Source: a virus. Taken from it: 35,357 bases of DNA. The DNA lies in IMG/VR virus record IMGVR_UViG_3300006033_000066, positions 1 to 35,357 of that record; one strand, written 5' to 3'. Positions 6,982-32,888 of this stretch are shown one piece after another. A program made the translations under genes and the position numbers. Every line of letters begins with the position of its first letter. Position 1 is the stretch's first letter. Below the pieces are notes generated by a model that saw nothing but the letters and a program-made list of their open reading frames with translations, had not been told where the DNA came from and did not search any database.

Positions 6982-7368
6982 ATGACTGATTCAAACGAGA
7001 ACACGCCTCCCACCGGAGGTTTCGTGCTTCCCGCTAAGTACTACGAGTTCGTCAAGTGGTTCGTTCTGATTTTCCTGCCGGGTCTGAGTAGCTTCTACTA
7101 CGGCCTCTCTCTTATTTGGGAGGGCGTCCCTGCTGCAGGTCAGGTTGTTGGTACTCTCGCGCTTCTCGCGACGTTCCTCGGCCTTATCTTGGGTGTTTCT
7201 AACCGAAACTTCAAGGCTCAGGGTGCTGACGGATATTTGAACGCGGCCATCGACGGCGATAACGTCGTATTCTCGCGTATTGCGCTTCCCAATATCACGG
7301 CGGAGGAGCTCACTCGCAAGAAGAGTGTTACCATCCAGGTTAACCCCACTTTCGGAGCCTCGCAGTAA
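6982..7368 (+). CDS. Holin (Dp-1-like)
   Basis: A 128-residue membrane protein. I chose ATG 6982 because a strong AAGGAG lies 6-11 bases upstream; an upstream in-frame start would overlap the fibre gene. Two transmembrane segments are clear: one around KWFVLIFLPGLSSFYYGLSLIW and one around VVGTLALLATFLGLILGV, followed by SNRNF and a soluble C-terminal tail of about 60 residues. This layout (short polar N terminus, KYYEFVKW, Pro-Gly break, two helices, LGVSxxxF end) matches the Dp-1-type holin family, which makes membrane holes at lysis. No endolysin is visible in this window. The C-terminal tail is longer than in the smallest family members and may regulate timing. Confidence 0.82.
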   Translation: MTDSNENTPPTGGFVLPAKYYEFVKWFVLIFLPGLSSFYYGLSLIWEGVPAAGQVVGTLALLATFLGLILGVSNRNFKAQGADGYLNAAIDGDNVVFSRIALPNITAEELTRKKSVTIQVNPTFGASQ

Positions 7369-7384
7369 AAACACGCGTTATAAT
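7360..7384 (+). promoter_or_regulatory. Phage promoter copy 1
   Basis: TCGCA at 7360-7364, ACAC at 7371-7374, and TATAAT at 7379-7384 followed by GACACC. This is one of ten copies with the same spacing of 14 bases between TCGCA and the -10 box. It begins inside the stop region of the holin gene and drives the gene starting at 7407. There is no TTGACA-type -35 box. Confidence 0.85.
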
Positions 7385-7406
7385 GACACCTCTGAAAGGA
7401 TATCGC

Positions 7407-7703
7407 GTGTTTCCCAAGAAAACCAACGCAGAAACCTCGACGCTTGTCGACGTGAAAAACGCCATTACCTCAGCCCTCGGAAACGAAGAGCCTGGTACTG
7501 AAATCTACGAAAAGCTCCTCACGGAACTGGAACGTGTAGAGGCCATGATCACCAAGAACCCCTCTTGGTCCTTCAAGCCCTCTGCCGACACCATTCTCAA
7601 CGGAGTCTTTACGCTGCTCAGTATCCTCTTCATCACGAAGCACGAGTCTCTGAACGTCATCACATCGAAAGCTGTCGGTTTTCTGCCGAAGCTCATGAAG
7701 TAA
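7407..7703 (+). CDS. Small lysis-region membrane protein
   Basis: A 98-residue protein. I chose GTG 7407, preceded by GAAAGGA 7-13 bases upstream. The longer in-frame ATG at 7383 lies within the TATAAT box and so is probably upstream of the transcript start. The sequence has a charged helix (IYEKLLTELERVEAM) and then a segment KPSADTILNGVFTLLSILFI with HE and NVITSKAVGF, a pattern seen in small phage proteins that follow holins or sit near membrane-protein blocks. One hydrophobic segment (about residues 62-76) suggests membrane association. It may assist lysis or act with the membrane proteins downstream; the function is not known. Confidence 0.7.
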   Translation: MFPKKTNAETSTLVDVKNAITSALGNEEPGTEIYEKLLTELERVEAMITKNPSWSFKPSADTILNGVFTLLSILFITKHESLNVITSKAVGFLPKLMK

Positions 7704-7726
7704 CACACTCACCCACACAGATGTAC

Positions 7727-7784
7727 AAAACCGAAAGGACTTGTAAACGCCGCAACTAGGCCGATACAAGTCCTTTCGGTTTTA
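7727..7784. terminator. Terminator closing the tail/lysis operon
   Basis: A perfect 19-bp inverted repeat (arms 7727-7745 and 7765-7783, loop of 19 bases). The 5' arm starts with AAAA and the 3' arm ends in TTTT, so it can stop transcription from either side. It sits just after the last lysis-region gene. Confidence 0.85.
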
Positions 7785-7802
7785 CACTGCCTTTAAGTTT
7801 TC

Positions 7803-7817
7803 CCTCTTGTATCACTT
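7803..7817. repeat. Dispersed CCTCTTGTATCACTT repeat, copy 1
   Basis: A 15-base sequence found again without mismatch at 28322-28336. Its core TCTTGTATCA also appears three times near 32572-32696. Here it abuts the TCGCA element of promoter copy 2, so it could be a regulator site. Confidence 0.5.
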
Positions 7818-7841
7818 CGCAAGATATACACGGGTTATACT
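7817..7841 (+). promoter_or_regulatory. Phage promoter copy 2
   Basis: TCGCA at 7817, ACAC within the spacer, and TATACT at 7836-7841, with the same 14-base gap as the other copies. The GACACC tail is replaced by GAAAGGAG, which is the ribosome site of the next gene. The leader is therefore extremely short. Confidence 0.75.
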
Positions 7842-7855
7842 GAAAGGAGTTCCAA

Positions 7856-8065: not shown

Positions 8066-8098
8066 AACTAACAGCCCCTAACACGGGCTTTAGTTTTT
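8064..8098 (+). terminator. CTAACAC-loop terminator A
   Basis: Inner stem AGCCC (8073-8077)/GGGCT (8085-8089), loop CTAACAC (8078-8084), outer stem AAAACTA (8064-8070)/TAGTTTT (8091-8097) and a T run. It ends only 16 bases before the next start codon. One of four members with the same loop. Confidence 0.85.
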
Positions 8099-8114
8099 GC
8101 CAAGAAAGGATATT

Positions 8115-8441
8115 ATGCCTCTACCAACGCCACCCATGTATTACAAATCGGCCTCAGTGGTTCTCAGAATGCGATCTGACGGTGTTTTAACCCTTAAGAG
8201 TTTATATTCGGTCAAACAAAGACAAGGACACGCAGCGGAGCTTCTACGGCTTATTTGTGAGTATGCGGACGAGCATAGATTAGATATAGAGCTCGAGGCT
8301 AAGCAATACGGACATACAAGAGGTCTTGACAACCAGGGGTTAGTTATATTCTACGGTAAGTATGGGTTTGTCTTGAATGGGGGTTCTACGCCGGATCATT
8401 TGCTAATGCTTAGACGGTCGCAGGATTTACACGGGGTATAA
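8115..8441 (+). CDS. GNAT-family acetyltransferase-like protein
   Basis: A 108-residue protein. I chose ATG 8115, preceded by GAAAGGA; a TTG at 8097 lies in the terminator T run. The QRQGHAAELL segment (about residues 35-44) matches the acetyl-CoA pyrophosphate loop (Q-x-x-G-x-A/G), followed by a helix, an IELEAK strand, and LVIFYGKYGF, the typical helix before the last GNAT strand. At 108 residues it is a minimal GNAT fold. It would transfer an acetyl group to an amine; the target is unknown, but phage GNATs can modify host proteins or small molecules. Its stop codon TAA is part of the TATAAT box of promoter copy 3. Confidence 0.78.
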   Translation: MPLPTPPMYYKSASVVLRMRSDGVLTLKSLYSVKQRQGHAAELLRLICEYADEHRLDIELEAKQYGHTRGLDNQGLVIFYGKYGFVLNGGSTPDHLLMLRRSQDLHGV

Positions 8442-8442
8442 T
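8418..8442 (+). promoter_or_regulatory. Phage promoter copy 3
   Basis: TCGCA at 8418, TTACAC in the spacer, and TATAAT at 8437-8442 with the fixed 14-base gap. It overlaps the last codons of the acetyltransferase gene. No gene follows for 200 bases, so the product is probably an RNA. Confidence 0.82.
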
Positions 8443-8591
8443 GAGCCCCTGAAAAGGTATCAAACTAGCCTGTATTTATACAGTCCCCCGAGCTTCCCCT
8501 CTAACGAGAGGACTAAAAGTAATTCGGGAAATAGGTAGCTAGGGCTCTCTTCTAAACTTCTCACGGTAATTCCACAAAGGATTTAGTTTTT
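8443..8591 (+). ncRNA. Candidate structured non-coding RNA 1
   Basis: No credible ORF lies between promoter copies 3 and 4. The sequence right after the -10 box can fold into a closed multi-helix RNA: GAGCC (8443)/GGCTC (8543-8547); a CCT-GAAA-AGG hairpin with a GNRA loop (8448-8457); CTAGC (8465)/GCTAG (8538); CTGTA-TTTA-TACAG (8470-8483); and CCCGA (8487)/TCGGG (8524) enclosing CCTCT-AACG-AGAGG (8498-8511). A CTAAA...TTTAG pair with a T run (8552-8590) could end it. The fold is inferred by eye with no covariation. If transcription starts about 7 bases after TATAAT, the first bases of the outermost helix would be lost. Confidence 0.55.
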
Positions 8592-8594
8592 GCC

Positions 8595-8619
8595 TCGCAG
8601 ATTTTACACGCGTTATAAT
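8595..8619 (+). promoter_or_regulatory. Phage promoter copy 4
   Basis: TCGCA at 8595, TTACAC in the spacer, and TATAAT at 8614-8619 followed by GACACCC. It starts within a few bases of the T run ending RNA candidate 1 and drives the gene at 8653. Confidence 0.85.
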
Positions 8620-8652
8620 GACACCCATCCGCCTTCAACCAAAGGAATCATT

Positions 8653-8868: not shown

Positions 8869-8875
8869 TCCCAAC

Positions 8876-8907
8876 CCTAAAACCTCTAACACAGGTTTTA
8901 GGTTTTT
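8876..8907 (+). terminator. CTAACAC-loop terminator B
   Basis: A perfect 10-bp stem, CCTAAAACCT (8876-8885)/AGGTTTTAGG (8893-8902), with loop CTAACAC and five T. The next start codon lies 17 bases downstream, so read-through is needed for expression of that gene from promoter copy 4. Confidence 0.9.
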
Positions 8908-8923
8908 CCGATAGGAGAACCTA

Positions 8924-9175: not shown

Positions 9176-9178
9176 GCC

Positions 9179-9203
9179 TCGCAAGAAAAACATGTCCTAT
9201 AGT
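9179..9203 (+). promoter_or_regulatory. Phage promoter copy 5
   Basis: TCGCA at 9179, ACAT in the spacer, and TATAGT at 9198-9203 followed by GACACG. It has the fixed 14-base gap, beginning four bases after the preceding stop. Confidence 0.82.
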
Positions 9204-9305
9204 GACACGTATGCCATTTCACTATGGCGCTACTCTGAACGATTCACAGTCTAGAATCGCCGTTTAGGAAGACTAGCAGAGCAACCGACGTGTCATTTAC
9301 TTTTT
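9204..9305 (+). ncRNA. Candidate structured non-coding RNA 2 (leader)
   Basis: Between promoter copy 5 and the next gene. GACACGT (9204-9210) pairs perfectly with ACGTGTC (9288-9294), closing GCCAT (9213)/ATGGC (9224) with a 6-base loop, and CTCTG (9233)/CAGAG (9277) enclosing GATTC (9241)/GAATC (9254). The closing helix is followed by ATTTACTTTTT, so the whole unit could be a terminated RNA or a leader controlling the gene at 9325. An alternative AGTCT/AGACT pair (9248/9270) could switch the inner part. The outer helix begins inside the conserved GACAC of the promoter, so the real transcript may lack its first bases. Confidence 0.55.
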
Positions 9306-9324
9306 GCCAAATTAAGGAGAAAAA

Positions 9325-9789: not shown

Positions 9790-10569
9790 ATGGATATTGC
9801 TCGTATTTTCAAGGAAGCAGGACCGCTTCTCAAGCGTAACTCCTCGACCATTCTCACCGGTCTTGGCGTCGCGGGGTCCATCGGCTCTCTTATTCTGGGA
9901 GTCAAAGCAACGCCTCGTGCCCTCCGAAAGCTCGAGGGGGCTTACAACCTCAAAAACGTCACCGGTGTCTCGGATGACGTACCTCTGACAAAGGTAGAAG
10001 TCATCAAGACCGTCTGGGTCGACTACATGCCGGCTGTAGGTCTGCAGGTAGTGACTATCGCCAGCGTCATTGGCGCTCAGTCGATCAACATGCGCAAGCA
10101 GGCGGCTATCATATCCGCCTTCAGCATTTCCGAAGCAGCCCTCCGTGAGTACCAGGAGCGAATGGCTGTAGAGGCACCCACCAAAGACCGTAAGGTCCGA
10201 GACGACATCGCTCAGGCTCGTGTCGACGGCGATCCTGTGACCCAAAAGGAAGTTCTGATGATCGGTAACGGTGATCAGCTCTTCTACGAGGCTCACACGG
10301 GACGATATTTCATGTCGACCATGCAGAAAGTTCAGAAAGCCGTCAACGATCTGAATTTCCGGGTTCTCAATCAGAACTACGCCTCTCAAAATGAGTTCTA
10401 TGGGATGCTTGGTCTTGGTCCCGTGGCTCAGGGCGAGGAATTCGGCTGGACTCCCGAACACACGCTCGAAGTCGACTTCTCGACCACGATGTCCGACGAC
10501 GAGCGTGCTGCAATCTCGATCGACTACTACCGAAAGCCCGTCAGCAACTACTGGAAAGGCTTCAGCTGA
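9790..10569 (+). CDS. DUF6353-like two-span membrane protein, paralogue 1
   Basis: A 259-residue protein. A hydrophobic segment at about residues 20-37 (ILTGLGVAGSIGSLILGV), then KATPRALRKLE, a second at about 80-98 (MPAVGLQVVTIASVIGAQSI), then an NMRKQAAIISAF helix and a soluble C-terminal domain with NEFYGMLGL and YYRKPVSNYW. It is clearly related to the 302-residue protein at 14490: same order of ILTxxGxxGxIxS, ATxxxxxxxE, GxxxxxxSxIxAQ, helix, and a C-terminal domain with a YxxLG element. The pattern resembles DUF6353, a phage family of unknown role. It probably sits in the cell membrane with a large cytoplasmic domain. Confidence 0.75.
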   Translation: MDIARIFKEAGPLLKRNSSTILTGLGVAGSIGSLILGVKATPRALRKLEGAYNLKNVTGVSDDVPLTKVEVIKTVWVDYMPAVGLQVVTIASVIGAQSINMRKQAAIISAFSISEAALREYQERMAVEAPTKDRKVRDDIAQARVDGDPVTQKEVLMIGNGDQLFYEAHTGRYFMSTMQKVQKAVNDLNFRVLNQNYASQNEFYGMLGLGPVAQGEEFGWTPEHTLEVDFSTTMSDDERAAISIDYYRKPVSNYWKGFS

Positions 10570-11566: not shown

Positions 11567-11591
11567 TCGCAAAAATTACACGCCCTATAAT
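11567..11591 (+). promoter_or_regulatory. Phage promoter copy 6
   Basis: TCGCA at 11567, TTACAC in the spacer, and TATAAT at 11586-11591 followed by GACACCCC. This is the closest copy to the consensus. Confidence 0.87.
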
Positions 11592-12649: not shown

Positions 12650-12674
12650 TCGCAAGAAAAACATATCCTATAGT
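12650..12674 (+). promoter_or_regulatory. Phage promoter copy 7
   Basis: TCGCA at 12650, ACAT in the spacer, and TATAGT at 12669-12674 followed by GACACCC. Same fixed spacing. Its TATAGT variant and AGAAAAACAT spacer match copy 5; both precede leader hairpins. Confidence 0.84.
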
Positions 12675-12681
12675 GACACCC

Positions 12682-12705
12682 ACCACTCACGTGGTTTCAT
12701 TTTTT
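12682..12705 (+). terminator. Leader attenuator hairpin
   Basis: ACCAC (12682)-TCAC-GTGGT (12695), then TTCATTTTTT. It begins 7 bases after the -10 box of copy 7, so the transcript would start at or inside it. Premature stopping before the gene at 12732 is plausible. Confidence 0.6.
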
Positions 12706-13189: not shown

Positions 13190-13834
13190 ATGGCAGACGC
13201 ACCATCGGGACCCGAGAAGTACGCCAGTAACAGCAATCGAGACAAGGCTGCTGCGGATATTCCTGAGAAAAAAGTAGAAAAAGTCATAGAAGGCTCCGCT
13301 GTTCAGCGTAAGCGACCTCTCGGACGACGGATAATGGACAACTTCAAGGGTGAGGACGCCCAGAGCGTCGGTCACTACGTGTTGTTCGAGGTTGTCTTGC
13401 CCCAGCTGAAGGATCTGATCTTTGACGTGGGGTCTTCCGCTCTCCAGCGAGCCTTATTTGGCGACCGTGCGGGTCGTCCTTACACGCCGGCAGGACGTAA
13501 GGGCTACACTCCGTACAACACCATCGCTTCTTCGGCGATATCCAAGGCCGCTCAAGCAGCTAAGCCCACTCCGACCCTTGCTAGCGACGAATTTGGCGAT
13601 ATTATCGTCGAAACGCGCGGCGAGGCTCAGGAGGTCATGGACAAGATCGGTAACCTGATCGAGACCTACGGTATGGCCTCTGTGGCGGACCTGAAGGCGG
13701 CTGTGGGGCTCACTGGCAACTTCACCGATGAGAAGTTCGGTTGGGTTGCTATGGGTGGCACGGATATTCGCCGAATGGGCGGTGCTCAGCCGGGTTATGT
13801 GCTCATTTTCCCGCGGCCTGAGGAGCTTGTCTAA
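13190..13834 (+). CDS. Conserved phage protein (possible structural)
   Basis: A 214-residue protein, ATG 13190, with a weak ribosome site (GAGAAAAA). The N terminus is lysine-rich and disordered, then RPLGRRIMDNFKGED, a VLFEVVLPQLKDLIFD amphipathic segment, and FGDRAGRPYTPAG. The C-terminal half has FGDIIVETRGEAQEVMDKI, a helix, a short DLKAAVGLTG segment, DEKFGWVAMGGTDIRR and a final strand with FPRPEEL. This C-terminal pattern recurs in phages of Gram-positive hosts, usually as unknown or putative structural. Its stop overlaps the next start (TAATG). Confidence 0.68.
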   Translation: MADAPSGPEKYASNSNRDKAAADIPEKKVEKVIEGSAVQRKRPLGRRIMDNFKGEDAQSVGHYVLFEVVLPQLKDLIFDVGSSALQRALFGDRAGRPYTPAGRKGYTPYNTIASSAISKAAQAAKPTPTLASDEFGDIIVETRGEAQEVMDKIGNLIETYGMASVADLKAAVGLTGNFTDEKFGWVAMGGTDIRRMGGAQPGYVLIFPRPEELV

Positions 13835-14251: not shown

Positions 14252-14493
14252 TGGACGACGTCAGGTCTATCCTGGTGCCCGCCAAGCTTATTCGTGTCGG
14301 TGACTACGTCCCTATGGGCGGTTGGGTCATTGCCATAAGCAAGAGCGGAACTAGGGGGCTCTTTCCCAAGAGCTATATTACACTGACGTTCTACACAGGT
14401 GTCGACATTGTTGACTTTACCACGGAAGACTATATTCCGGTCAACGTCGAAAGAATCTACAAGCAAATAGCAACAGCCAAGGAGAAGAAATGA
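14251..14493 (+). CDS. Small beta-rich paralogue 3
   Basis: An 80-residue protein. The first ATG in frame, 14251, overlaps the stop of the ten-codon ORF and lacks its own ribosome site. It contains IRVGDYVPMGGWVIAI, SYITLTFYTGVDIVDF and a final VNVERIYKQIATAKEKK helix. The VGDY and TF-x-x-G elements align with the two upstream proteins, with an added C-terminal basic helix. Its stop overlaps the start of the 14490 gene, placing it in the same operon as the large membrane protein. Confidence 0.66.
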   Translation: MDDVRSILVPAKLIRVGDYVPMGGWVIAISKSGTRGLFPKSYITLTFYTGVDIVDFTTEDYIPVNVERIYKQIATAKEKK

Positions 14494-15398
14494 ACATTGG
14501 CGCCTTAACGGCCAAAGTTGCAACTGTCGGCGGACCCAAAGTCCAGCTCGCAGCTGCCAAGGTAGCAAAATACAGCCCCCAGATCCTCACTGCGGTGGGT
14601 ATCGTCGGCGGTATCGCATCAACCGTCATGATCGCTCGTGCCACCCTCAAGGTAGAGGCGCTTGTCGAGAACCACGAGATGGGTCGCCGTGTCATTGCCG
14701 ATAAGACGGTCAATGACGAGTATGCCTCGGACCGGGACCGTACCAAGGACCTGACGTACCTTTACGTGCGCAGTGGTCTTGACTGGGTCAAGCTCTACGG
14801 ACCGGGTGTCTCGCTTGGTGTGGCGTCCATCGTTTCCATCATCGCCGCGCAGGGTATTCAGCAGAAGCGTCAGGTTGCGCTCGTCGCGGCTGTCAAGTCG
14901 GCTGAGTCGGCCTTTGCGGCCTACCGTGCTCGCGTGATCGAGGCCATCGGTGAGGAGAAAGAGCGGGAAATCCGCTACGGTATCTCTACCGAGATCGTCG
15001 AGGACGAGAACGGCAAGAAGACCAAGGTCCGCACCTTTGACCCGAGCGGTCTTTCCGACTACGTCCGTTATTTCGACGAGCACAACATCAATTTCAAACA
15101 TGGTACTAGGGAGCTCAACCTCCTGTTCCTTAAGAACATTCAGAACTGGGCAAATGACCGCCTGAATGCTCGTGGTTACGTCTACCTCAACGAGGTTTAC
15201 GGCTGGCTTGGCTTTGACGACGTCCCTGCCGGCCAGGTCGTTGGATGGCTCCACAAGGACTTCAACAACGGTGACGGATATATCGACTTCGGTTGGGATA
15301 ACCCCGTCAACGAGCAGGCCAAGAAGTTCATTGACGGACACGACGGCGGTATCCTCCTCGACTTCAACGTCGACGGCGAAATCATGAGCAAACTCTAA
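14490..15398 (+). CDS. DUF6353-like two-span membrane protein, paralogue 2
   Basis: A 302-residue protein, ATG 14490, with AAGGAGAAG just upstream. Segments: a hydrophobic helix at about residues 31-49 (ILTAVGIVGGIASTVMIAR), ATLKVEALVE, a second at about 103-121 (GPGVSLGVASIVSIIAAQG), then a KRQVALVAAVKSAESAF helix and a large soluble C-terminal domain with YLNEVYGWLGF, VGWLHKDFNNGDGYIDFGW and a final DFNVDGEI. It parallels the 9790 protein along its length and resembles DUF6353. The C-terminal domain is larger here. It is one of two related membrane proteins at opposite ends of the small-gene block, suggesting a hetero-complex. Confidence 0.76.
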   Translation: MNIGALTAKVATVGGPKVQLAAAKVAKYSPQILTAVGIVGGIASTVMIARATLKVEALVENHEMGRRVIADKTVNDEYASDRDRTKDLTYLYVRSGLDWVKLYGPGVSLGVASIVSIIAAQGIQQKRQVALVAAVKSAESAFAAYRARVIEAIGEEKEREIRYGISTEIVEDENGKKTKVRTFDPSGLSDYVRYFDEHNINFKHGTRELNLLFLKNIQNWANDRLNARGYVYLNEVYGWLGFDDVPAGQVVGWLHKDFNNGDGYIDFGWDNPVNEQAKKFIDGHDGGILLDFNVDGEIMSKL

Positions 15399-17170: not shown

Positions 17171-20100
17171 GTGGATTTCTACCAAATCAAAGAGGTTGAC
17201 GACAAAGGCAAGAAGGGTATCGTAACGGTATATCCTGATTTCCGAGTTACTCGATCAAAAGACCTGATGGTCCGTGCTAAGAGCTTCTACGCAATATGGG
17301 ATGCTGAGCAGGGCATGTGGTCCAGGGACGAGTTTGACGTTCAGCGTCTTATGGATGAGGATATTAAGCAATACGAAGTCCAAACTCAAGCGTTTGAAGT
17401 ACATCGCAAGCTGCTTGGTAACTTCAGCTCGAATAGCTGGCTGCAATTCCGCAACTACGTAGGCCACTTAAGCGACTCATATGTCCAGTTGGACGAGAAG
17501 CTGACCTTTAGCAACACAGTTGTAACCAAGGAAGACTACGTATCACGGCGCCTGCCATATCCTCTCGAGGCGGGCAACTGCGAGGCCTTCAAGGAGCTCA
17601 TGGAGGTCCTGTACGACCCGGATGAGCGCGCTAAGCTTGAATGGGCTATTGGGGCAATCGTTGCGGGAGACGCTAAGGATATTCAGAAGTTCGTAGTCCT
17701 CTACGGTAAGGCCGGTAGCGGTAAGAGTACAGTTCTTAACATCATCCAGTGGCTCTTCGAGGGATATTTGGCAGTCTTTGAGGCCAAAGCTCTTGCTGGT
17801 AGTAACAACCTCTTTGCGACCGAGGCGTTTAGGCACAACCCCCTTGTGGCGATTCAGCACGACGGTGACCTCAGCAAAATCGAGGACAACACCAAGCTGA
17901 ATAGCATTATCAGCCACGAGGACCTTCTCATCAACGAGAAGAACAAGCCTAGCTACATGTCTCGGATCAACGCGTTCCTTTTCATGGGAACGAACAAGCC
18001 GGTGCATATTACGGACGCAAAGTCGGGTATTATCAGGCGACTGATTGACGTGCACCCGTCGGGGCGGCTTCTTACCCCGCGTAAGTACCAGGTCCTCATG
18101 TCTCAGATCAAATTTGAGCTTGGGGCTATCGCCTGGCACTGCCTGCAGGTATATCGTGAGATGGGTAAGGACTTCTACGCGTCCTACCGCCCCGTCGAGA
18201 TGATGCTGCAGACGGACGTGTTCTACAACTTCATCGAGGCATATTTCGACGTCTTCAGTGGGCAGGATGGTGTGACCCTCAAGCAGGCTTACAAGCTGTA
18301 CGAGGAATTCGTCACGGAAACCAACGTGCCCTACAAGTTAGCGCAGTATAAGTTCCGTGAGGAGCTTCGCAACTACTTCGAGAACTTTGAGGATCGCCAC
18401 GAGATGCCCGATGGGACGAGAGTCCGCTCCTGGTACTCTGGTTTCTCCGCCGACCGCTTCAAGGTGCAGACGGTCAAGGACGAGATGGCATTTTCGCTTG
18501 TCCTTGACTCGGATGAGTCTATATTCGACAAAGAGATGGCTAAGCAGCCTGCGCAATACAGCAACAAAGCAGGCAACCCTACCCGCTACTGGACAAATGC
18601 GCCCAGGACGAACGATAAAGGGGAGGAATTCACTCCATCTCACGACCAGGTCGTATCGACTGTTCTGGCAGATCTGGATACTAAGCGCGAGCACTACGTT
18701 AAGGTTCCGCTTAACCATATTGTCATCGATTTCGACCTTACGAACGAAAATGGAGAGAAAAGCGCAGAGCTTAACCTGGAAGCGGCGTCACAGTGGCCGG
18801 CGACTTACGCAGAGTTTAGTAAGAGCGGTGCAGGAATCCACCTACACTACAACTACGAGGGCGACGTCACCGAGCTTAGAAGAATCTTTGAGCCTGGAAT
18901 TGAGATCAAAGTATACAACGGAGACTCAGCCCTTAGGCGTCGTCTCTCAAAGTGTAACAACGTCCCAGTTGCTACACTGAACAGCGGCTTGCCGTTGAAG
19001 GAGAAAAAAGTGATCAACAAGGAGGCGATTAAGTCAGAGAAGGGGTTGCGGGACCTTATTGCAAGAAATCTCAATAAGGAAATTCACCCGGGAACAAAGC
19101 CCTCGATCGACTTCATCAAGCATATTCTGGATGAGGCTTACAACAAAGAAGGTTTCACGTACGATGTGAGCGACCTTCGTCCTAAGTTAATGGCGTTTGC
19201 CAACAACTCGACGCATCAGGCGCTGACGTGCCTCAAGATCGTCATGGACATGAAGTTGGCCTCAGAGGATATCGGAGAGAAGGGCCTGCCCACTGAGTAC
19301 GGTGGGGAAAAAGAGCTTGTCTTCTTTGACGTCGAGGTGTTCCCTAACCTCTTCGTTATTTGCTGGAGCTACGAAGACAGCGACGATGTTGTTCGAATGG
19401 TCAACCCGACCGCACAGGCCGTAGAGGAGCTTCTGCCTCTGCTTCTTGTGGGCTTTAACTGCCGCCGCTACGACAACCATATTCTGTATGCCGCAAGCCT
19501 GGGCTACTCGAATATTCAGCTTTACCGGCTGTCTAAGCGCCTTATCGAAGGGGAGAAGAATGCATATTTTGGTGCGGCTTATAACATCAGTTATACTGAC
19601 ATCTTTGACTTTGCTTCTGAAAAGAAGACACTAAAGAAATGGATGCTCGAGCTTGGCCTTCGCCACCTCGAGAACCAGTATGACTGGGATCAGCCCGTCC
19701 CGGAGGAAAAGTGGGGCGAGATTGTTGAGTACTGCGTAAACGACGTCCTGGGAACGAAGGCGGTCTTCAAGCACCGTCGTCAGGACTACGTGGCACGGCA
19801 GATCCTTGCCGACCTCTCGGGTCTCAGCATGAACTCCACTACTCAGCAGCACACCGCCAAGATTGTATTTGGCGATGACCGGAAGCCCCAAGACAAGTTC
19901 GTATATCGTGACCTGTCTGAGACTTTCCCGGGCTACGAGTACAAGTACGACCCTGAGAAGAAGCGGAGTGTCTCGACATATCGTGGTGAGAACCCGAGTG
20001 AGGGCGGTTACGTATTTGCCAAGCCGGGCATGTACACCAACGTTGCAGTACTGGATATTCAGTCGATGCACCCCACCTCGATCGAGGCGCTTGACCTGTT

Positions 20101-21004
20101 TGGGCCCTATACGCCTAACTTTAGCGAACTCAAGGCTGCCAGGCTTGCAATTAAGCACGGCGACTACGAGGCTGCTCGAGGGATGCTTAACGGGGCCCTT
20201 GCAAAGTATCTGACGGACGAGAACGAGGCTCAGGCCTTATCCTACGCCCTTAAGATCGTCATTAACATCGTCTATGGCCTCACCGCTGCGTCTTTTGACA
20301 ACTCGTTCCGTGACCCGCGCAATATCGACAACATCGTCGCTAAGCGTGGTGCTCTGTTCATGATTGACCTGAAGAATGCTGTCCTTGAGGGTGGATACGA
20401 CGTTATTCACATCAAGACCGACTCGATTAAGATACCAAACGCTACGAAGGAAATCATCGACTTCGTGATGGAGTTTGGTAGGCAGTACGGGTACGAATTC
20501 GAGCACGAGGCAACCTACGAGAAGATGGCGCTGGTCAACGACGCCGTCTATATTGCTAGAGTTGCCGCGGGTAAGAAGCCGGCTCACTGGGAGGCGGTTG
20601 GGGCGGAATTCAAACACCCTGTCGTCTTAAAGACGCTGTTTAGCAAGGAAAAAATCGAGTTTGCTGACATGGCTGAGACTAAGGCAGTGCAGAAGGGCGC
20701 TATCTACCTCGACTACGAGGGCGACGACGTTGCTATGGCACTGATGAAGGACAACATGAAGCAGTTCATTGGTAAGGTAGGAAGCTTCGTCCCCGTCACT
20801 GAGGGTGGAGGTACACTGCTGCGTATCGATGACGGCAAAGAATATGCGGTAACCGGCACTAAGGGTTATCGCTGGCTCGAGGCGGAGTTTGTCAAGCAGA
20901 CCGGCAAAGAGAAAGACGTCGATCCGAAGTACTACGACAAGCTCGTCAACAGCGCAGTAGCAACCATCCGTAAATTTGGAGACTTTGAGGAGTTCATAAG
21001 TTGA
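17171..21004 (+). CDS. SF3 helicase - AEP primase - family B DNA polymerase fusion
   Basis: A 1277-residue protein starting at GTG 17171 after GAGGAGG. Residues 150-300 form a superfamily 3 helicase core: Walker A GKAGSGKST (179-187), an acidic Walker B-like QHDGD (229-233), a sensor GTNKP (273-277) and an arginine finger region IIRRLID (287-293). Residues about 510-600 look like an archaeo-eukaryotic primase domain: IDFD (519-522), SGAGIHLH (552-559) and IEIK (577-580). Residues about 715-860 are a 3'-5' exonuclease (DVE at 720-722; N763 and D768; YCVND with D858). Residues about 955-1130 hold polymerase motifs A (LDIQSMHPTS, D962), B (K1028...YG1036) and C (KTDS, D1084). Motif C has Lys where DTDS is usual. 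A replisome in one polypeptide that could unwind, prime and copy the phage genome. Confidence 0.85.
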   Translation: MDFYQIKEVDDKGKKGIVTVYPDFRVTRSKDLMVRAKSFYAIWDAEQGMWSRDEFDVQRLMDEDIKQYEVQTQAFEVHRKLLGNFSSNSWLQFRNYVGHLSDSYVQLDEKLTFSNTVVTKEDYVSRRLPYPLEAGNCEAFKELMEVLYDPDERAKLEWAIGAIVAGDAKDIQKFVVLYGKAGSGKSTVLNIIQWLFEGYLAVFEAKALAGSNNLFATEAFRHNPLVAIQHDGDLSKIEDNTKLNSIISHEDLLINEKNKPSYMSRINAFLFMGTNKPVHITDAKSGIIRRLIDVHPSGRLLTPRKYQVLMSQIKFELGAIAWHCLQVYREMGKDFYASYRPVEMMLQTDVFYNFIEAYFDVFSGQDGVTLKQAYKLYEEFVTETNVPYKLAQYKFREELRNYFENFEDRHEMPDGTRVRSWYSGFSADRFKVQTVKDEMAFSLVLDSDESIFDKEMAKQPAQYSNKAGNPTRYWTNAPRTNDKGEEFTPSHDQVVSTVLADLDTKREHYVKVPLNHIVIDFDLTNENGEKSAELNLEAASQWPATYAEFSKSGAGIHLHYNYEGDVTELRRIFEPGIEIKVYNGDSALRRRLSKCNNVPVATLNSGLPLKEKKVINKEAIKSEKGLRDLIARNLNKEIHPGTKPSIDFIKHILDEAYNKEGFTYDVSDLRPKLMAFANNSTHQALTCLKIVMDMKLASEDIGEKGLPTEYGGEKELVFFDVEVFPNLFVICWSYEDSDDVVRMVNPTAQAVEELLPLLLVGFNCRRYDNHILYAASLGYSNIQLYRLSKRLIEGEKNAYFGAAYNISYTDIFDFASEKKTLKKWMLELGLRHLENQYDWDQPVPEEKWGEIVEYCVNDVLGTKAVFKHRRQDYVARQILADLSGLSMNSTTQQHTAKIVFGDDRKPQDKFVYRDLSETFPGYEYKYDPEKKRSVSTYRGENPSEGGYVFAKPGMYTNVAVLDIQSMHPTSIEALDLFGPYTPNFSELKAARLAIKHGDYEAARGMLNGALAKYLTDENEAQALSYALKIVINIVYGLTAASFDNSFRDPRNIDNIVAKRGALFMIDLKNAVLEGGYDVIHIKTDSIKIPNATKEIIDFVMEFGRQYGYEFEHEATYEKMALVNDAVYIARVAAGKKPAHWEAVGAEFKHPVVLKTLFSKEKIEFADMAETKAVQKGAIYLDYEGDDVAMALMKDNMKQFIGKVGSFVPVTEGGGTLLRIDDGKEYAVTGTKGYRWLEAEFVKQTGKEKDVDPKYYDKLVNSAVATIRKFGDFEEFIS

Positions 21005-24955: not shown

Positions 24956-24980
24956 TCGCAAAAATTACATGGGTTATAAT
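24956..24980 (+). promoter_or_regulatory. Phage promoter copy 8
   Basis: TCGCA at 24956, TTACAT in the spacer, and TATAAT at 24975-24980 followed by GACACCCC. It starts three bases after the DUF6378-like stop and drives the gene at 25006. Confidence 0.85.
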
Positions 24981-25211: not shown

Positions 25212-25571
25212 ACTTTTCGTAGGGGTAACTCGTCTGAGCGAGTATAAATAGTTTCTTAGGCTCAGAGCGGGTGGTCTGACAAGGGTAGAGGCGAACAAGC
25301 CATACTTACAGCTAAGGGAAGATTGATCCATATACCCATCTTCCACCACCGTGAAAAACTTGCTGCGTCATACACTTCTTGGAATAGAGAAGATACAAAG
25401 TCCCTGACAACGCTGTTTCCCTGTATACGCGCTTAAACATTAAGGTGCACTTATGAAGCTGTCTTACCGGCATCATATTTAAGCATGCGCGTCAGGTTTT
25501 AATCACCATCATCTGACAGGTTATTTATTAACCTTTACCCGTCCTAGGCACGACACTAAACTGCCTGTCAA
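25212..25571 (+). other. Structured non-coding stretch before tRNA 1
   Basis: About 360 bases without a credible ORF or promoter copy. Visible hairpins: ACTCG/CGAGT (25228-25243); GGAAGAT/ATCTTCC (about 25317-25342, loop of 14); CTTCT/AGAAG (about 25376-25393); GTCAG/CTGAC and TGACAGG/CCTGTCA near 25490-25570, the latter enclosing AGGTTA-TTTAT-TAACCT. GGTGGT/ACCACC could join distant parts. The density of stems suggests a folded RNA, but no overall model can be proven here. Confidence 0.4.
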
Positions 25572-25645
25572 CCCCTCATAGCTCAGCCGGTTAGAGCAGC
25601 GGACTCATAATCCGTCGGTCCTCGGTTCAAGTCCGAGTGAGGGGA
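25572..25645 (+). tRNA. tRNA with CAT anticodon (Met or Ile2)
   Basis: A complete cloverleaf: acceptor CCCCTCA/TGAGGGG, D arm with GGTTAGAGC, anticodon stem GCGGA/TCCGT with loop CTCATAA, T arm CTCGG-TTCAAGT-CCGAG and discriminator A; no encoded CCA. The C1-G72 pair excludes an initiator tRNA. The CTCATAA loop occurs in both elongator Met and lysidine-modified Ile2 (AUA) tRNAs. Since the other phage tRNAs read A-ending codons, I favour Ile2, but the sequence does not decide. Confidence 0.9.
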
Positions 25646-25758
25646 CGCTTGTTGGTAGGCAAGACGGGGCTGGTCCGACACACGGGTATCACCCATATCT
25701 GACGATGGTGGCGGAGGGTGATATTAAACGACCGCCGATTCTGAAAAGGCGCCCGTTC

Positions 25759-25783
25759 TCGCAATAAATACACGGGGTATAAT
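25759..25783 (+). promoter_or_regulatory. Phage promoter copy 9
   Basis: TCGCA at 25759, ATACAC in the spacer, and TATAAT at 25778-25783 followed by GACACC. It separates the tRNA 1 trailer from the gene at 25805. Confidence 0.85.
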
Positions 25784-25804
25784 GACACCAACGAAAGGAA
25801 CATC

Positions 25805-26026
25805 ATGCCCCGTTTCTTCTGGAACCTCGAAGCTTTTACCACAGTCCTCGACCGCAGTCAGCAATTCAACAACGAATTCGCCACGATTCGCGCCACGATT
25901 GAAAGTCGTCCGATCCTCATCGCCACTCCCGGCGAGCTGATCCGGATGACGATCATCCTGCGCGAACTCAAGCGACTTCACAAAGAAATGGCTGCGATCG
26001 CCGACCAGTTTGAGCGCGAGCTCTAA
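25805..26026 (+). CDS. Hypothetical 73-residue helical protein
   Basis: ATG 25805 with GAAAGGA upstream and promoter copy 9. Mostly helical: FFWNLEAFTTVLDRSQQFNNEF, then ATIRATIESRP and a long amphipathic helix (RMTIILRELKRLHKEMAAIADQF) that could form a coiled coil. No cysteine or membrane span. The gene is flanked by its own promoter and by a CTAACAC-loop terminator. Family not recognised; a small dimeric regulator is possible. Confidence 0.66.
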   Translation: MPRFFWNLEAFTTVLDRSQQFNNEFATIRATIESRPILIATPGELIRMTIILRELKRLHKEMAAIADQFEREL

Positions 26027-26055
26027 GAACCAGCATAACCCTAATCACTGTCAAC

Positions 26056-26089
26056 AAACCAACAGCCCCTAACACGGGCTTAGGTTTTT
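26056..26089 (+). terminator. CTAACAC-loop terminator D
   Basis: Inner stem AGCCC (26064)/GGGCT (26076), loop CTAACAC (26069-26075), outer stem AAACC (26056)/GGTTT (26083) and five T. Confidence 0.88.
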
Positions 26090-26093
26090 GCTT

Positions 26094-26112
26094 CTTGGAG
26101 AAATACTCCAAG
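26094..26112 (+). promoter_or_regulatory. Leader hairpin
   Basis: A perfect 7-bp hairpin CTTGGAG-AAATA-CTCCAAG directly after terminator D and 17 bases before the next ATG. It may block or steer read-through and translation of the 26130 gene. Confidence 0.45.
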
Positions 26113-26129
26113 TAAGAGAAAGGAAACCC

Positions 26130-26273
26130 ATGTGGTTTTTGTTCTCTAGGGGCTACAACGACGAGACATATGGGTACGTTTACCATTATCTCTGGGTTGG
26201 GGTCCAACTCCCGCGCATTCACAGGTATAGGAAGTGGATTCCTATATTCTTGTACAAGCGGCGAGTGTACTGA
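26130..26273 (+). CDS. 47-residue hypothetical protein
   Basis: ATG 26130 with GAAAGGA 5-11 bases upstream. The product is aromatic- and arginine-rich (MWFLFSRGYNDETYGYVYHYL, then RIHRYRKWIPIFLYKRRVY), with two hydrophobic patches that could associate with a membrane. Codon use is less biased than in surrounding genes, and it lies between structured RNA and a tRNA, so it may not be translated at a high level. Confidence 0.42.
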   Translation: MWFLFSRGYNDETYGYVYHYLWVGVQLPRIHRYRKWIPIFLYKRRVY

Positions 26274-26314
26274 GTACCACGTCCGAAATGACGTTAAACT
26301 AAAGATAGCAGTAA

Positions 26315-26387
26315 GCCCCTATAGCTCAGTTGGTAGAGCAGCGGACTTTTAATCCGCGGGTCCTCGGTTCGAGTCCGAGTGGGGGTA
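26315..26387 (+). tRNA. tRNA-Lys(TTT)
   Basis: Acceptor GCCCCTA/TGGGGGT (G-T pairs at both 1-72 and 6-67), D arm GCTCAGTTGGTAGAGC, anticodon arm GCGGA-CTTTTAA-TCCGC, T arm CTCGG-TTCGAGT-CCGAG, discriminator A, no CCA. The anticodon TTT reads AAA and AAG. The T arm and acceptor closely match tRNA 1, so the two may share an origin. Confidence 0.92.
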
Positions 26388-26397
26388 CGCAACACGA

Positions 26398-26480
26398 GGG
26401 GCTTTCTATATTCAAGGTATAACCAAACGTCGGGTTGACCCTTGAACGGATAGACATAAGGTTCGAGTCCTTGAGCTCCA
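26398..26480 (+). pseudogene. tRNA-like remnant
   Basis: A T arm AAGG-TTCGAGT-CCTT and 3' GAGCTCC-A that can pair with GGGGCTT at 26398. The middle lacks a standard anticodon arm; instead TTCAAGG (26411) pairs with CCTTGAA (26440-26446). Probably a decayed tRNA or part of the local structured RNA. Confidence 0.4.
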
Positions 26481-26483
26481 CAG

Positions 26484-26620
26484 ATCCGGCTAGCCCCGGT
26501 AAGGGCTTTTCACGACAAGGCACCGATGCCGGATGTAGGGTGCACGGCCAGCTACCCACCTGTTACCGCAGAGAGCTGGATTTTATCGTAGGAGTGAGCC
26601 TTTGGCTTTTATCCTACATA
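26484..26620 (+). ncRNA. Candidate structured non-coding RNA 3
   Basis: Stems visible by eye: ATCCGGC (26484)/GCCGGAT (26528) enclosing AGCCC-CGGTAA-GGGCT (26492-26507); CCAGCT (26548)/AGCTGG (26574); and GTAGGA (26588)/TCCTAC (26612) with an inner AGCC-TTT-GGCT. A 63-codon frame overlaps but has no ribosome site. The series of perfect helices suggests a folded RNA downstream of tRNA-Lys; the start and end are not known. Confidence 0.48.
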
Positions 26621-26655
26621 TCCTGACGAGTTTCCCCCAATCTGCGTCAGGGCTC

Positions 26656-26680
26656 CTGGGCATGAGTTTAAAAGGCCCGC
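26656..26680 (+). promoter_or_regulatory. CTGGGCATG leader hairpin, copy 1
   Basis: CTGGGCATG followed by a GGGC/GCCC pair (26658-26661/26675-26678) and CCGC. A similar element at 27808-27831 also precedes a small gene, so this may be a shared leader or terminator form. Confidence 0.4.
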
Positions 26681-26717
26681 CTATCATATTCACACAACCA
26701 CCGTCAAAGGGGATGTA

Positions 26718-26948
26718 ATGCTGTTGTTTGATCGGCTTGAAGATGCAGAAGACGTAGTGTCAGAGTGCGTATTCTGCAAGAAGCCCAAGTTTATTGTCCA
26801 CACCATCAACAACGCCGTCCGTCAGATTGAATACGGTGTTGACCGGTGCGTCAAGAAGTTGTGCGACGAGCACTGCAAGTGGGATCACACCGGCAAGGCT
26901 TACACGCTCGACTGGGGCGACGAGGATCATGTGGACATGGTTAGTTAG
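26718..26948 (+). CDS. Small zinc-ribbon-like protein
   Basis: A 76-residue protein starting at ATG 26718 after AAAGGGG. Cysteines CVFC (18-21), then CVKKLC (44-49), C53 and H57 give a ribbon-like C-x2-C...C-x4-C-x3-C pattern. The sequence starts with LLFDRLEDAEDVV and ends acidic (DWGDEDHVD). It is likely a zinc-binding protein, possibly binding RNA or a host factor. It stands alone between structured RNA and tRNA 3. Confidence 0.65.
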   Translation: MLLFDRLEDAEDVVSECVFCKKPKFIVHTINNAVRQIEYGVDRCVKKLCDEHCKWDHTGKAYTLDWGDEDHVDMVS

Positions 26949-26954
26949 CAACAG

Positions 26955-27027
26955 GCACCTCTAGCCCAACGGTAGAGGCAATAGGTTTAGGTCCTATACA
27001 GTGTGGGTTCGAATCCCACGGGGTGTA
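26955..27027 (+). tRNA. tRNA-Leu(TAG), short variable loop
   Basis: Acceptor GCACCTC/GGGGTGT (with G-T pairs at 1-72 and 6-67), anticodon stem ATAGG/CCTAT with loop TTTAGGT (anticodon TAG, reading CUA), T arm GTGGG-TTCGAAT-CCCAC, discriminator A. The variable loop is only ACAGT, whereas bacterial tRNA-Leu usually has a long variable arm. The D arm (GCCC-AACGGTA-GAGGC) is also slightly irregular. Isotype is assigned from the anticodon only. Confidence 0.82.
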
Positions 27028-27268
27028 CGCTTGTGGTAGCAAGACAGGTTTAGTCCAACCTCCGTCCAAAAGAGACGGTAAGCATTTTCTATCTACCAAT
27101 AGATCTTGCGAAATATGGCTACACAATAGTGCAATAATTACGGAAGCAACGTTCCTCGGGGTTTAGAGTGAAACAAAGCTAGAGTACGTAGTATTGTCCG
27201 GTTATATTTAGACAAAATTCCCTTTGTCAATTAAATCAATCCGGCGGGTAGGCCACGATACGGTCTAC
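27028..27268 (+). other. Non-coding stretch between tRNA 3 and tRNA 4
   Basis: About 240 bases without a supported ORF. It starts with CGCTTG and a GCAAG pair like the trailer of tRNA 1 (25646 on), then CCGTC-CAAAAGA-GACGG (27062-27078), TCTAT/ATAGA near 27088-27103, and GACAAA-ATTCCC-TTTGTC (27211-27228). No promoter copy is visible. Confidence 0.4.
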
Positions 27269-27341
27269 GCTCCCTTAGCCCAATGGCAGAGGCAACGGAC
27301 TTAAAATCCGTTCAGTGTGGGTTCGAGTCCCACAGGGAGTA
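27269..27341 (+). tRNA. tRNA-Leu(TAA), short variable loop
   Basis: Acceptor GCTCCCT/AGGGAGT, anticodon stem ACGGA/TCCGT with loop CTTAAAA (anticodon TAA, reading UUA), T arm GTGGG-TTCGAGT-CCCAC, discriminator A, no CCA. It shares the D arm style and T arm with tRNA 3, and again lacks a long variable arm (TCAGT). The two probably arose by duplication. Confidence 0.87.
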
Positions 27342-27489
27342 CGCAGGTACGGATGCATATTTTATAAAAGGGTAACACCCACCGTACAACCCGCAAGATA
27401 AGCTGAAACTCGTATCGACAAACACGTGTGAGTCTCGAATGTTTCTGAGCGGATGTTCCAGAGAACAACAGCACAAACACTCTGGGGTA
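27342..27489 (+). other. Structured stretch between tRNA 4 and tRNA 5
   Basis: About 150 bases with no ORF. Stems: GTACGG (27347)/CCGTAC (27382) enclosing GGGT-AAC-ACCC; GAAAC (27405)/GTTTC (27441); and CCAGAG (27458)/CTCTGG (27480), which ends just before tRNA 5. Confidence 0.42.
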
Positions 27490-27564
27490 ACTCTAGTGGT
27501 TTAACGCGGTAAAACGGCAGTAGAAATGTTGACACTGATGCGGGTTCAAATCCCGCCTAGAGTA
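27490..27564 (+). tRNA. Atypical tRNA or tRNA-like gene, isotype unclear
   Basis: A perfect 7-bp acceptor ACTCTAG/CTAGAGT, D arm GTTT-AACGCGGTA-AAAC, T arm GCGGG-TTCAAAT-CCCGC and discriminator A are clear. The anticodon arm is abnormal: CAGT/ACTG with a 12-base loop (AGAAATGTTGAC) in place of five pairs and a 7-base loop. If ATGTTGA is the functional loop the anticodon would be GTT (Asn), but this is a guess. It may be degenerate, or a tRNA-like element. Confidence 0.6.
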
Positions 27565-27566
27565 CG

Positions 27567-30518: not shown

Positions 30519-30519
30519 C

Positions 30520-30834: not shown

Positions 30835-31108
30835 GGTTCTTAATATATCGGAGTTAAGGAAAAAACCTTGGCCTGAAAACGCTGTCTACATAGGTCGTTC
30901 TAGGAGAGGTAGCAACTGGGGTAACCCTTTTGTTATGCGTAGTGAGAAAGACCGATTAAAAGTAATTAACCAATACCGTGATTTCTTGTTGTCTAAACCG
31001 GATCTTATTGAAAAAGCTCAAAAAGAACTTAGAGGTAAAGATCTAGTATGTTACTGTGCACCTAAGTTTTGTCACGGAGACATTTTGTTAGAAATAGCTA
31101 ATGGCTAA
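30827..31108 (+). CDS. DUF4326 protein
   Basis: A 93-residue protein. I chose TTG 30827, overlapping the previous stop, with GAGGGAG nearby; ATG 30800 lies upstream in the same frame. The pattern NAVYIGRSRRGSNWGNPFV, INQYRDFLL, KELRGKDLVCYCAPKFCHGDILLEIAN is typical of DUF4326. The domain is common in phages and may bind nucleotides, but its activity is not established to my knowledge. Start is less certain than identity. Confidence 0.82.
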   Translation: MPRVLNISELRKKPWPENAVYIGRSRRGSNWGNPFVMRSEKDRLKVINQYRDFLLSKPDLIEKAQKELRGKDLVCYCAPKFCHGDILLEIANG

Positions 31109-32351
31109 TGTCGAGTTAGCACCGCACCAAATCGAAGCAATTGGTAAGATGCACAATGGTTGTATTCTGAAAGGAGGTGTTGGCAGTGGGAAGACGAGAA
31201 CAGCCCTGGCCTATTTCTACACCAAAGAAGCAAGGGGAACGCTCCGTATTAACGGTCGGGGTGATACGACAGAGCCAGCTACACCAAAGGATATCTACGT
31301 CATCACAACTGCCAAGAAACGTGACAGTAGAGATTGGGAGGCAGAAGCCCTTCCGTTCGTTCTGGCTACAAGTCCAGGGACCAGTGTCGGAGGCATTAAA
31401 TTTACGGTTGACTCCTGGAACAATGTTCAAAATTACACGGAGGTAAAGGATGCCTTCTTCATATTTGATGAACAGCGATTGGTTGGAAGTGGTGCATGGG
31501 TTAAAGCCTTTCTCAAGCTTGCAAAACACAATCGGTGGATCATGCTGTCGGCGACCCCTGGGGACAATTGGATGGACTATATTCCCGTCCTTGTGGCCCG
31601 TGGTTTCTATAAAAACCGTACGGAGTTCATTCGGCGTCACGTTGTATATTCAACGTTCACGCAGTTCCCTAAGGTGGATCGCTATGTGGAAACCCGCCAT
31701 CTGGAAGCTCTACGGCGCCGAATGGTTGTCGATATGGAGTTTGCTCGACACACTACTAGGCACATACGTTCCGTTAGTGTGTCGCATTCTGAAGAGAATT
31801 TCAATCGAGTCTGGAAAGACCGATGGCATATATTCGAAGAAAGGCCGATTCGTGATGTCGGCGAGCTATATCGTGTGGCTCGCCGAGTGGTCAACTCTGA
31901 TCCGGATCGAGTGGCTGCTGTTATGCAAACGCTTGAGAAACACCCACGACTTATTGTGTTCTACAATTTCGATTACGAGTTGGAGATACTCAGGGTCATT
32001 GGCAGTACCCTCGGAATACCAACCGCCGAGTGGAACGGTCACAAACATAACGATCTACCAGAAACCGACAAGTGGCTCTACCTCGTACAATACACAGCCG
32101 GCAATGAGGGATGGAATTGCACTACGACAGACGCCATACTCTTCTATTCGCTAAACTATAGCTACAAGATCTTTGAGCAGTGCATGGGTCGGATCGATCG
32201 TATGAACACACCATATTTTGATCTGAACTATTATGTACTGCGGTCTGATACGCCTATTGACAGGAGCATCTGGAAAGCCATTGTGACTAAGAAGAACTTC
32301 AATGAAAGGAGTCTGGTGCCGGTATGGGAGCAGTTACCTCAGGCCGCTTAG
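31101..32351 (+). CDS. SF2 DEAD-like helicase
   Basis: A 416-residue protein starting at ATG 31101. Motifs in order: Walker A GGVGSGKT (about residues 25-32), FFIFDEQ (Walker B; Q replaces the third residue of DEAH), LSATPG (motif III), a recombination-type second lobe with LIVFYNFDYEL, TAGNEGWN (motif V), and QCMGRIDRMN (motif VI). It is likely an ATP-driven DNA translocase acting in replication or recombination, next to VRR-NUC and RecB-like nucleases. It overlaps DUF4326 by 8 bases, so the pair is co-translated. Confidence 0.86.
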   Translation: MANVELAPHQIEAIGKMHNGCILKGGVGSGKTRTALAYFYTKEARGTLRINGRGDTTEPATPKDIYVITTAKKRDSRDWEAEALPFVLATSPGTSVGGIKFTVDSWNNVQNYTEVKDAFFIFDEQRLVGSGAWVKAFLKLAKHNRWIMLSATPGDNWMDYIPVLVARGFYKNRTEFIRRHVVYSTFTQFPKVDRYVETRHLEALRRRMVVDMEFARHTTRHIRSVSVSHSEENFNRVWKDRWHIFEERPIRDVGELYRVARRVVNSDPDRVAAVMQTLEKHPRLIVFYNFDYELEILRVIGSTLGIPTAEWNGHKHNDLPETDKWLYLVQYTAGNEGWNCTTTDAILFYSLNYSYKIFEQCMGRIDRMNTPYFDLNYYVLRSDTPIDRSIWKAIVTKKNFNERSLVPVWEQLPQAA

Positions 32352-32560
32352 TTGAATACGAGTGGCGAGAGGTTCCGGGTTTCCCGGAATATGAGGTAAC
32401 AAGTCTGGGTCACATTCGTCGAAAGAAGAATAAAGTAGCCCATGCGACTCATTTTACGGGCACTACGGAGACTGTACAGCTCACTAAGGACGGCAAAAGA
32501 TACCACAGAACGCTCACTTCTATAGTAAAAGCGGCCTTCCCAGGGGTCCTTTATCCATGA
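32324..32560 (+). CDS. Stand-alone NUMOD4 domain
   Basis: A 78-residue protein starting at ATG 32324 within the end of the helicase gene. The sequence YEWREVPGFPEYEVTSLGHIRRKKNKVAH, a middle strand TETVQLTKDGKRYHR, and SIVKAAFPG match NUMOD4, as in the 28544 protein. Nothing follows but the putative origin, so the nuclease domain is absent. Start is uncertain because of the distance to AAGGAG (about 14 bases). Possibly a regulator or remnant of a homing element. Confidence 0.66.
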   Translation: MGAVTSGRLVEYEWREVPGFPEYEVTSLGHIRRKKNKVAHATHFTGTTETVQLTKDGKRYHRTLTSIVKAAFPGVLYP

Positions 32561-32860
32561 TGGGTAGCGTGAAAATGATACAAGAAAATGATACAAGACT
32601 TCCCCAACCTGGGAGTTTCCTGAGAAAACGCTGAGAGCCAAAAAGGGCCAAAAAGCCCAAAAACGTGTTTCAAAAATGGGCGTCTTGTATCATTTTAATT
32701 CAAAAATGGGCGGAGAAAAACCCAGTAAAACACTGGGAAGTAGGGCCTTTCCGCCCAAAAACCCAAAAATTTTCTTAAGTTACTTTCTGAGAGAATAAAA
32801 AATATAGTAAGCTAATTAATCAAGTTTTACAAAAATGGGCGAAATCACCGGTCAAGACCT
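32561..32860. other. Candidate replication origin / control region
   Basis: A gene-free, AT-rich gap with repeats. AAAATGATACAAGA occurs twice in direct order at 32572-32585 and 32585-32598, and inverted as TCTTGTATCATTTT at 32683-32696. CAAAAATGGGCG occurs at 32671, 32701 and 32830. A nested cruciform at 32707-32757 has arms TGGGCGG/CCGCCCA and an inner CCCAGT-AAAAC-ACTGGG. An A/T-rich stretch (about 32758-32835) follows. Iteron-like repeats plus an AT-rich tract are typical of origins; the nearby helicase and nucleases fit. It could equally be an operator array. Confidence 0.6.
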
Positions 32861-32863
32861 CCC

Positions 32864-32888
32864 TCGCACGGAAAACATAGGTTATAAT
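32864..32888 (+). promoter_or_regulatory. Phage promoter copy 10
   Basis: TCGCA at 32864, ACAT in the spacer, and TATAAT at 32883-32888, with the fixed gap. The downstream GACACC is missing. It sits at the right end of the origin-like region and drives the recombination genes. Confidence 0.78.

Follow-up and report, generated by a model that had tools for sequence, protein, structure and literature searches.

The DNA considered here (the window) is a 35,357-base virus record, IMG/VR IMGVR_UViG_3300006033_000066, representing a fragment. It carried ten copies of a short motif, TCGCA-N14-TATANT, and ended inside a gene for a single-chain RNA polymerase assigned to PHROG 4291, a relative of YonO from phage SPbeta. 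Judging from sequence comparisons, the motif is most probably the dedicated promoter of this polymerase. A pattern scan of both strands gave ten copies against 0.05 expected by chance, and none of 100 shuffles of the window reached this number. All copies were on the coding (+) strand, no eleventh copy was present on either strand and the reversed pattern matched nowhere. An earlier note on this DNA, which had proposed scanning the full genome, listed ten coordinates with identical spacing, and these proved exact. Its further observations, ACA followed by C or T (ACAY) at the same spacer position in all ten copies and GACAC directly after the hexamer in seven, were likewise reproduced. The motif can be written TCGCA-N6-ACAY-N4-TATAAT-GA, with a longer consensus of TCGCA-RNNN-TTACAY-NNNY-TATAAT-GACACC. 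All ten were recovered again, scoring 28-43, by a matrix trained on 482 actinophage sites (the window's own included); the top antisense score was 11.

Small genes followed copies 1 (7360..7384; GTG start at 7407), 2 (7817..7841, a TATACT variant; gene from 7856, with a Shine-Dalgarno sequence immediately after the hexamer), 4 (8595..8619), 6 (11567..11591; gene from 11622), 8 (24956..24980) and 9 (25759..25783; gene from 25805). Copy 3 (8418..8442) stood before a non-coding stretch regarded as an RNA candidate, and copy 5 (9179..9203, TATAGT) before a conserved RNA of ~90 nucleotides (9204..9294) followed by a U-run. Copies 7 (12650..12674, TATAGT) and 10 (32864..32888) were followed first by a hairpin with a U-run (12682-12705 and 32889-32935, respectively) and then by a gene, at 12732 in the case of copy 7. 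These hairpins are attenuator-like, so that read-through may be regulated. Terminator-like stems were also seen at 8073-8089 and 8876-8902, just before motif-headed units, which creates terminator-promoter-small gene cassettes.

The motif does not conform to the standard sigma-70 promoter. The distance from the first base of TCGCA to the hexamer is 19 bases, compared with ~23 for a standard -35 element; TCGCA is thus closer to the -10 position, as had been noticed, by about four bases rather than five. The reported lack of TTGACA was borne out, no -35 element being present at 16-18 bp from any of the ten hexamers apart from a chance TTGCCT at 8590. Canonical sigma-70 promoters were scarce altogether: allowing up to two mismatches, the entire window had only two sense-strand sites, of which one overlaps the copy at 8595, and between 7000 and 13500 sigma-70-like sites were no commoner than in shuffles.

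Copy 10 is the head of an operon of three genes on the same strand: a VRR-type nuclease (32947..33249; phrog_93 endonuclease, E 7e-12), a Cas4-like exonuclease (33212..33775; phrog_3953, E 4e-69) and the polymerase (33772..35357). The latter matched PHROG 4291 with E 1.8e-240 and, more remotely, PHROG 8308, the family of SPbeta YonO, with E 8e-7. It displayed the metal-binding motif DxDGD in the form GADFDGD, which was invariant among 80 aligned proteins. Because the window stops shortly past DFDGD and truncates the gene, the complete protein of a close relative (L184, 895 amino acids) was modelled with 80 homologues, yielding a predicted local distance difference test (pLDDT) score of 85. The model displayed the two double-psi beta-barrel core fold and resembled QDE-1 (Foldseek E 1.6e-10; Z 16.9 over 358 residues), RDR2 (Z 17.3) and Thermus phage gp62/gp64 (Z 13.7/13.4). 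Motif, family and predicted fold together identify the window's last gene as encoding a single-chain two-barrel RNA polymerase of the YonO/QDE-1 type, with RNA synthesis as its predicted activity. The earlier proposal of a phage polymerase subunit as reader of the motif thus pointed in the right direction, except that the candidate is a complete single-chain RNA polymerase and not a subunit. Helix-turn-helix (HTH) segments were detected by Pfam at both ends of the polymerase, mostly under the curated cut-offs.

Relatives of this protein are usually annotated as "HTH DNA-binding" or as "RNA-dependent RNA polymerase", the latter in GenBank records including NC_041952, NC_048749 and NC_023735. 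Both designations are probably misleading, the second because homology to YonO makes a DNA-dependent enzyme likelier. A PDB sequence search with the polymerase returned chance sialidase matches only. The crAss phage phi14:2 gp66 was missing from the list of fold matches, which excludes nothing, and single-sequence scans for further polymerases of the P118 and L243 kinds gave one or no relative. Polymerases of the family start with an almost invariant HYG-x-x-R-x-SGRYPWGSG segment, located at 33772-33870 in the window. SGRYPWGSG was considered as a general encapsidation tag and rejected, being seen at the loci examined only in polymerases and in two shorter frames resembling truncated polymerases.

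A megablast search of phage records with the window as query gave no match. Its DNA primase/polymerase (17171-21004) was ~60 % identical to those of Arthrobacter phages Uzumaki and Nightmare and Microbacterium phages DizzyRudy and Camille, with remoter kin in phages of Gordonia, Streptomyces, Rhodococcus, Lactococcus and Faecalibacterium. The search of relatives for the motif that had been suggested was positive: among eight metagenomic relatives gathered through the tape measure protein (36-58 % identical), six carried it in three to eight copies each. Fifty records were considered, comprising four named relatives and others picked by motif or by tape measure. The polymerase was encoded in 37 of them, including all 20 of at least 48 kilobases (kb), and the reversed pattern was absent from all 50. 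The 13 records lacking the polymerase were 19-47 kb long and are probably incomplete, because the gene sits at the genome end. Enterococcus and Listeria phages, tried as polymerase-free controls, were dropped; they are not true siblings, since their DNA polymerases matched at ~23-27 % over at most one third of the query.

The association was also recovered in the opposite direction. In 80 loci picked by the polymerase alone, TCGCA was found 19 bases before TATA[AG]T 28 times on the sense strand and never on the opposite one, and all other spacings from 12 to 29 occurred at most twice each. When 178 polymerase-picked loci from several phyla were scanned with a matrix blind to TCGCA, 128 of them (78 of 117 protein clusters) proved to have a site upstream of the polymerase, at a distance of 850-1500 bp; the same score was reached in none of the 178 on the antisense strand, within the gene or in the stretch of cas4. 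In the window, this upstream site is the copy at 32864, which is also the copy most widely kept in relatives.

The same geometry, spelled in other letters, was encountered in phages of other hosts. In Lactococcus and Faecalibacterium phages, where sites came from de novo dyad searches, Lactococcus phage P118 displayed eight copies of TTTTA-N6-ACAY-N4-TATAAT, Lactococcus phage CHPC971 ten copies, mostly [TC]CACA-N6-ACA-N5-TATAGT, and Faecalibacterium phage FP_oengus 14 copies of ACGCG...CA...CTTTAT-GGA. Twenty Firmicute prophages shared the pattern CGC-N8-CA-N7-T.AT. Dyads mirror on the reverse complement, which makes that control uninformative, and sense and antisense counts were therefore used: most of these prophages had 5-13 sense sites against 0-3 antisense, other spacings averaging 0.1-0.5, with fewer sites in G062 (three) and G072 (one). 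Across phage groups, the spacing is thus fixed while the first block (element I) and the hexamer vary. The hexamer was TATAAT in 358 of the 482 actinophage sites. Among the 144 Firmicute sites only four had this hexamer; TATTAT and TTTTAT prevailed there, and the second base (matching A-11) was A in 35 %. The sigma-70 -10 element requires A at the second position, and the Firmicute hexamer is therefore not a sigma-70 element. Reading the hexamer as a -10 box, as the earlier note did, accordingly agrees with the perfect TATAAT of actinophages and fails in their Firmicute sister phages. A search of ten host genomes with a strict form of the Firmicute motif gave 64 matches, of which 59 fell within the polymerase prophage or close to it; the motif is therefore not a host promoter class.

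Two features suggest that transcription starts at the base right after the hexamer. The RNA following copy 5 was conserved in two relatives (L001 and L002) and matched no Rfam family. The closing helix of this RNA (7 bp, GACACGU/ACGUGUC) starts with the first base past the hexamer, and the fold score of the full RNA (z -2.4) fell to z -0.7 upon removal of the first seven bases. Among 105 Firmicute sites having both a Shine-Dalgarno sequence and an open reading frame, 37 displayed the Shine-Dalgarno sequence starting at most six bases after the hexamer, where a sigma-70-type start would partly or wholly remove it. Helix and Shine-Dalgarno positions both indirectly favour a start directly after the hexamer rather than ~7 bp further on.

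Candidate readers of the motif were sought by comparing the core genes of 22 genomes. The core present in all 22 consisted of two DUF6353 proteins (in the window at 9790-10569 and 14490-15398), phrog_4079 (13190..13834, + strand), the DNA polymerase, a helicase, the VRR nuclease and Cas4. The RNA polymerase was present in every one of these phages and a single-strand annealing protein in 21; of the core genes, only the RNA polymerase was assigned to a transcription enzyme. Within the polymerase, an arginine of the second HTH (ESSVR) went with CGC in element I in 112 of 125 cases, compared with one of four for non-arginine forms (p = 0.006, phylogeny being ignored). In phage P118, whose polymerase has a threonine at this position, most of the eight motif copies begin with TTTTA. 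The covariation is suggestive, not proof, of recognition by the HTH.

Taken together, these data are best accommodated by a promoter belonging to the phage enzyme. Probably through its own HTH domains and perhaps with a phage cofactor, the polymerase would read two elements spaced by one helical turn, CGC as element I and CA as element II. The adjacent AT-rich hexamer would then be melted and the RNA begin at the purine right after it. Copies across the early region would drive short units that are bounded by terminators and contain small genes, tRNAs and small RNAs. The copy ~0.9 kb upstream of the polymerase would drive nuclease, Cas4 and polymerase and may read on into virion genes downstream. 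In the record of phage ReqiPepy6, the polymerase homologue bears the remark 'similar to Lactococcus phage 1706_gp75, structural protein'. The enzyme may therefore be delivered into the cell together with the DNA and begin early transcription. Initiation by the polymerase at the motif is inferred, as is direct reading without sigma factor or cofactor. A bolder formulation, put forward tentatively and with somewhat less than even confidence, is that a virion-carried polymerase of the YonO/QDE-1 type reads double-stranded promoters directly, by HTHs of the same chain and without any sigma-like factor. The second-HTH arginine would read CGC, so that this helix could re-target specificity, and one such enzyme-promoter pair would have persisted in phages whose hosts include Actinobacteria, Firmicutes, Bacteroidota and others.

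Several points weigh against assigning the motif to the polymerase. The window's polymerase gene is incomplete, and 50 of the 178 polymerase loci lacked a strong upstream site. Co-occurrence partly reflects whole-genome descent, as DNA polymerase, Cas4 and others co-occur too. The HTH covariation hinges on the four non-arginine cases, and Lactococcus phage CHPC971 has the arginine but CAC in place of CGC. Moreover, the perfect -10 hexamer of the window and other actinophages might be used by the host polymerase, and another core protein, phrog_4079, may be the reader or a partner.

The last of these points leads to the likeliest of the alternatives, namely that the phage polymerase transcribes and a separate phage protein such as phrog_4079 picks the promoters, in a sigma-like division of labour. 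The occurrence of phrog_4079 in all compared genomes agrees with this, as does its model, in which a confident C-terminal domain displayed a winged-helix-like helix-helix-helix-strand order; its N-terminal part was of low confidence and no significant structural match was obtained, the top one being the MotA complex 6k4y (E 0.67, probability 0.04). The polymerase, on the other hand, has HTH segments of its own at both ends (mostly weak in Pfam), one of which varies with element I. Such a division of labour is regarded as rather unlikely, and as to promoter ownership it is a sub-case of the main explanation.

More improbable is use of TATAAT by the host sigma-70 polymerase, aided by a phage activator that would bind TCGCA/ACAY much as T4 MotA acts at -30. 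This corresponds to the activator that the earlier note had offered beside a polymerase subunit, and it would suit actinophages with their mostly perfect hexamer, an element near -30 that takes the place of the -35 box, a feature also of T4 middle promoters, and a core protein with a winged-helix-like domain. It fits the family-wide data poorly: Firmicute phages lose the sigma-70 features of the hexamer and keep the rest of the motif, the RNA appears to start immediately after the hexamer, the motif is absent from host chromosomes outside the polymerase prophages save for the few matches mentioned, and the match of phrog_4079 to MotA is not significant. A repeat that merely binds a protein, as a repressor operator or as a site of partition or replication, and has an incidental AT-rich hexamer would recall the short intergenic repeats without assigned role given for many actinophages in the relevant passages of PMC7302621, but is highly improbable for an asymmetric element that keeps strictly to one orientation and precedes genes, tRNAs or small RNAs, often with a Shine-Dalgarno sequence at fixed distance. 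Those passages give repeats for other Microbacterium phage clusters and none for cluster EL, and a literature search found no published description of the motif.

Further features lie around copies 8 and 9. A Pistol self-cleaving ribozyme (Rfam RF02679, 43.8 bits) was located at 25228-25286, between a small gene and a tRNA cluster. The mostly non-coding stretch 25572-27565 contains five tRNA genes (Met, Lys, Leu, Leu, Ser) and more structured-looking sequence.

The motif supplies a concrete, testable candidate promoter for a widespread sister family of YonO, a poorly understood enzyme class. As it is present in easily grown Arthrobacter, Streptomyces, Gordonia and Lactococcus phages, the question of YonO-type promoters becomes open to a simple in vitro test. 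Minimal two-barrel polymerases are considered to be similar to the ancestral form of the cellular enzymes, and the motif suggests how such a polymerase could find promoters without sigma or TBP/TFB. Compact and mutually distinct enzyme-promoter pairs could also serve as expression tools in actinobacteria.

Among known systems, T7-type promoters are compact and conserved up to the start site, with a TATA-like block directly before a purine start. The motif shares this layout, although the T7 polymerase fold is unrelated and spacing and sequence differ. T4 middle promoters use host sigma-70 through MotA/AsiA sigma appropriation; they likewise combine an element near -30, in place of -35, with a -10-like hexamer, which in the present family is not conserved as a -10. 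SPbeta YonO was established as a genuine RNA polymerase by Forrest et al. 2017 (PMC5467207), who left its promoter and its need for factors open. Like the window protein, its remote homologue, it is a single-chain two-barrel polymerase with an aspartate triad. It transcribes late genes from one operon start (PMC5467207), in contrast to the many motif copies found here, of which most lie in the early region. No comparable motif was detected ahead of yonK in SPbeta DNA, the best site agreeing at 13 of 18 consensus positions, which equalled others on the strand and was not significant. Thermus phage P23-45 gp96/gp64 (PMC10770324) offer a parallel in being single-chain two-barrel polymerases with dedicated upstream motifs and motif-polymerase co-occurrence. 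The P23-45 virion enzyme is fused to the tape measure, whereas the polymerase described here is a separate protein of ~900 amino acids with HTH segments at both ends, and its motif is kept across phages of several bacterial phyla.

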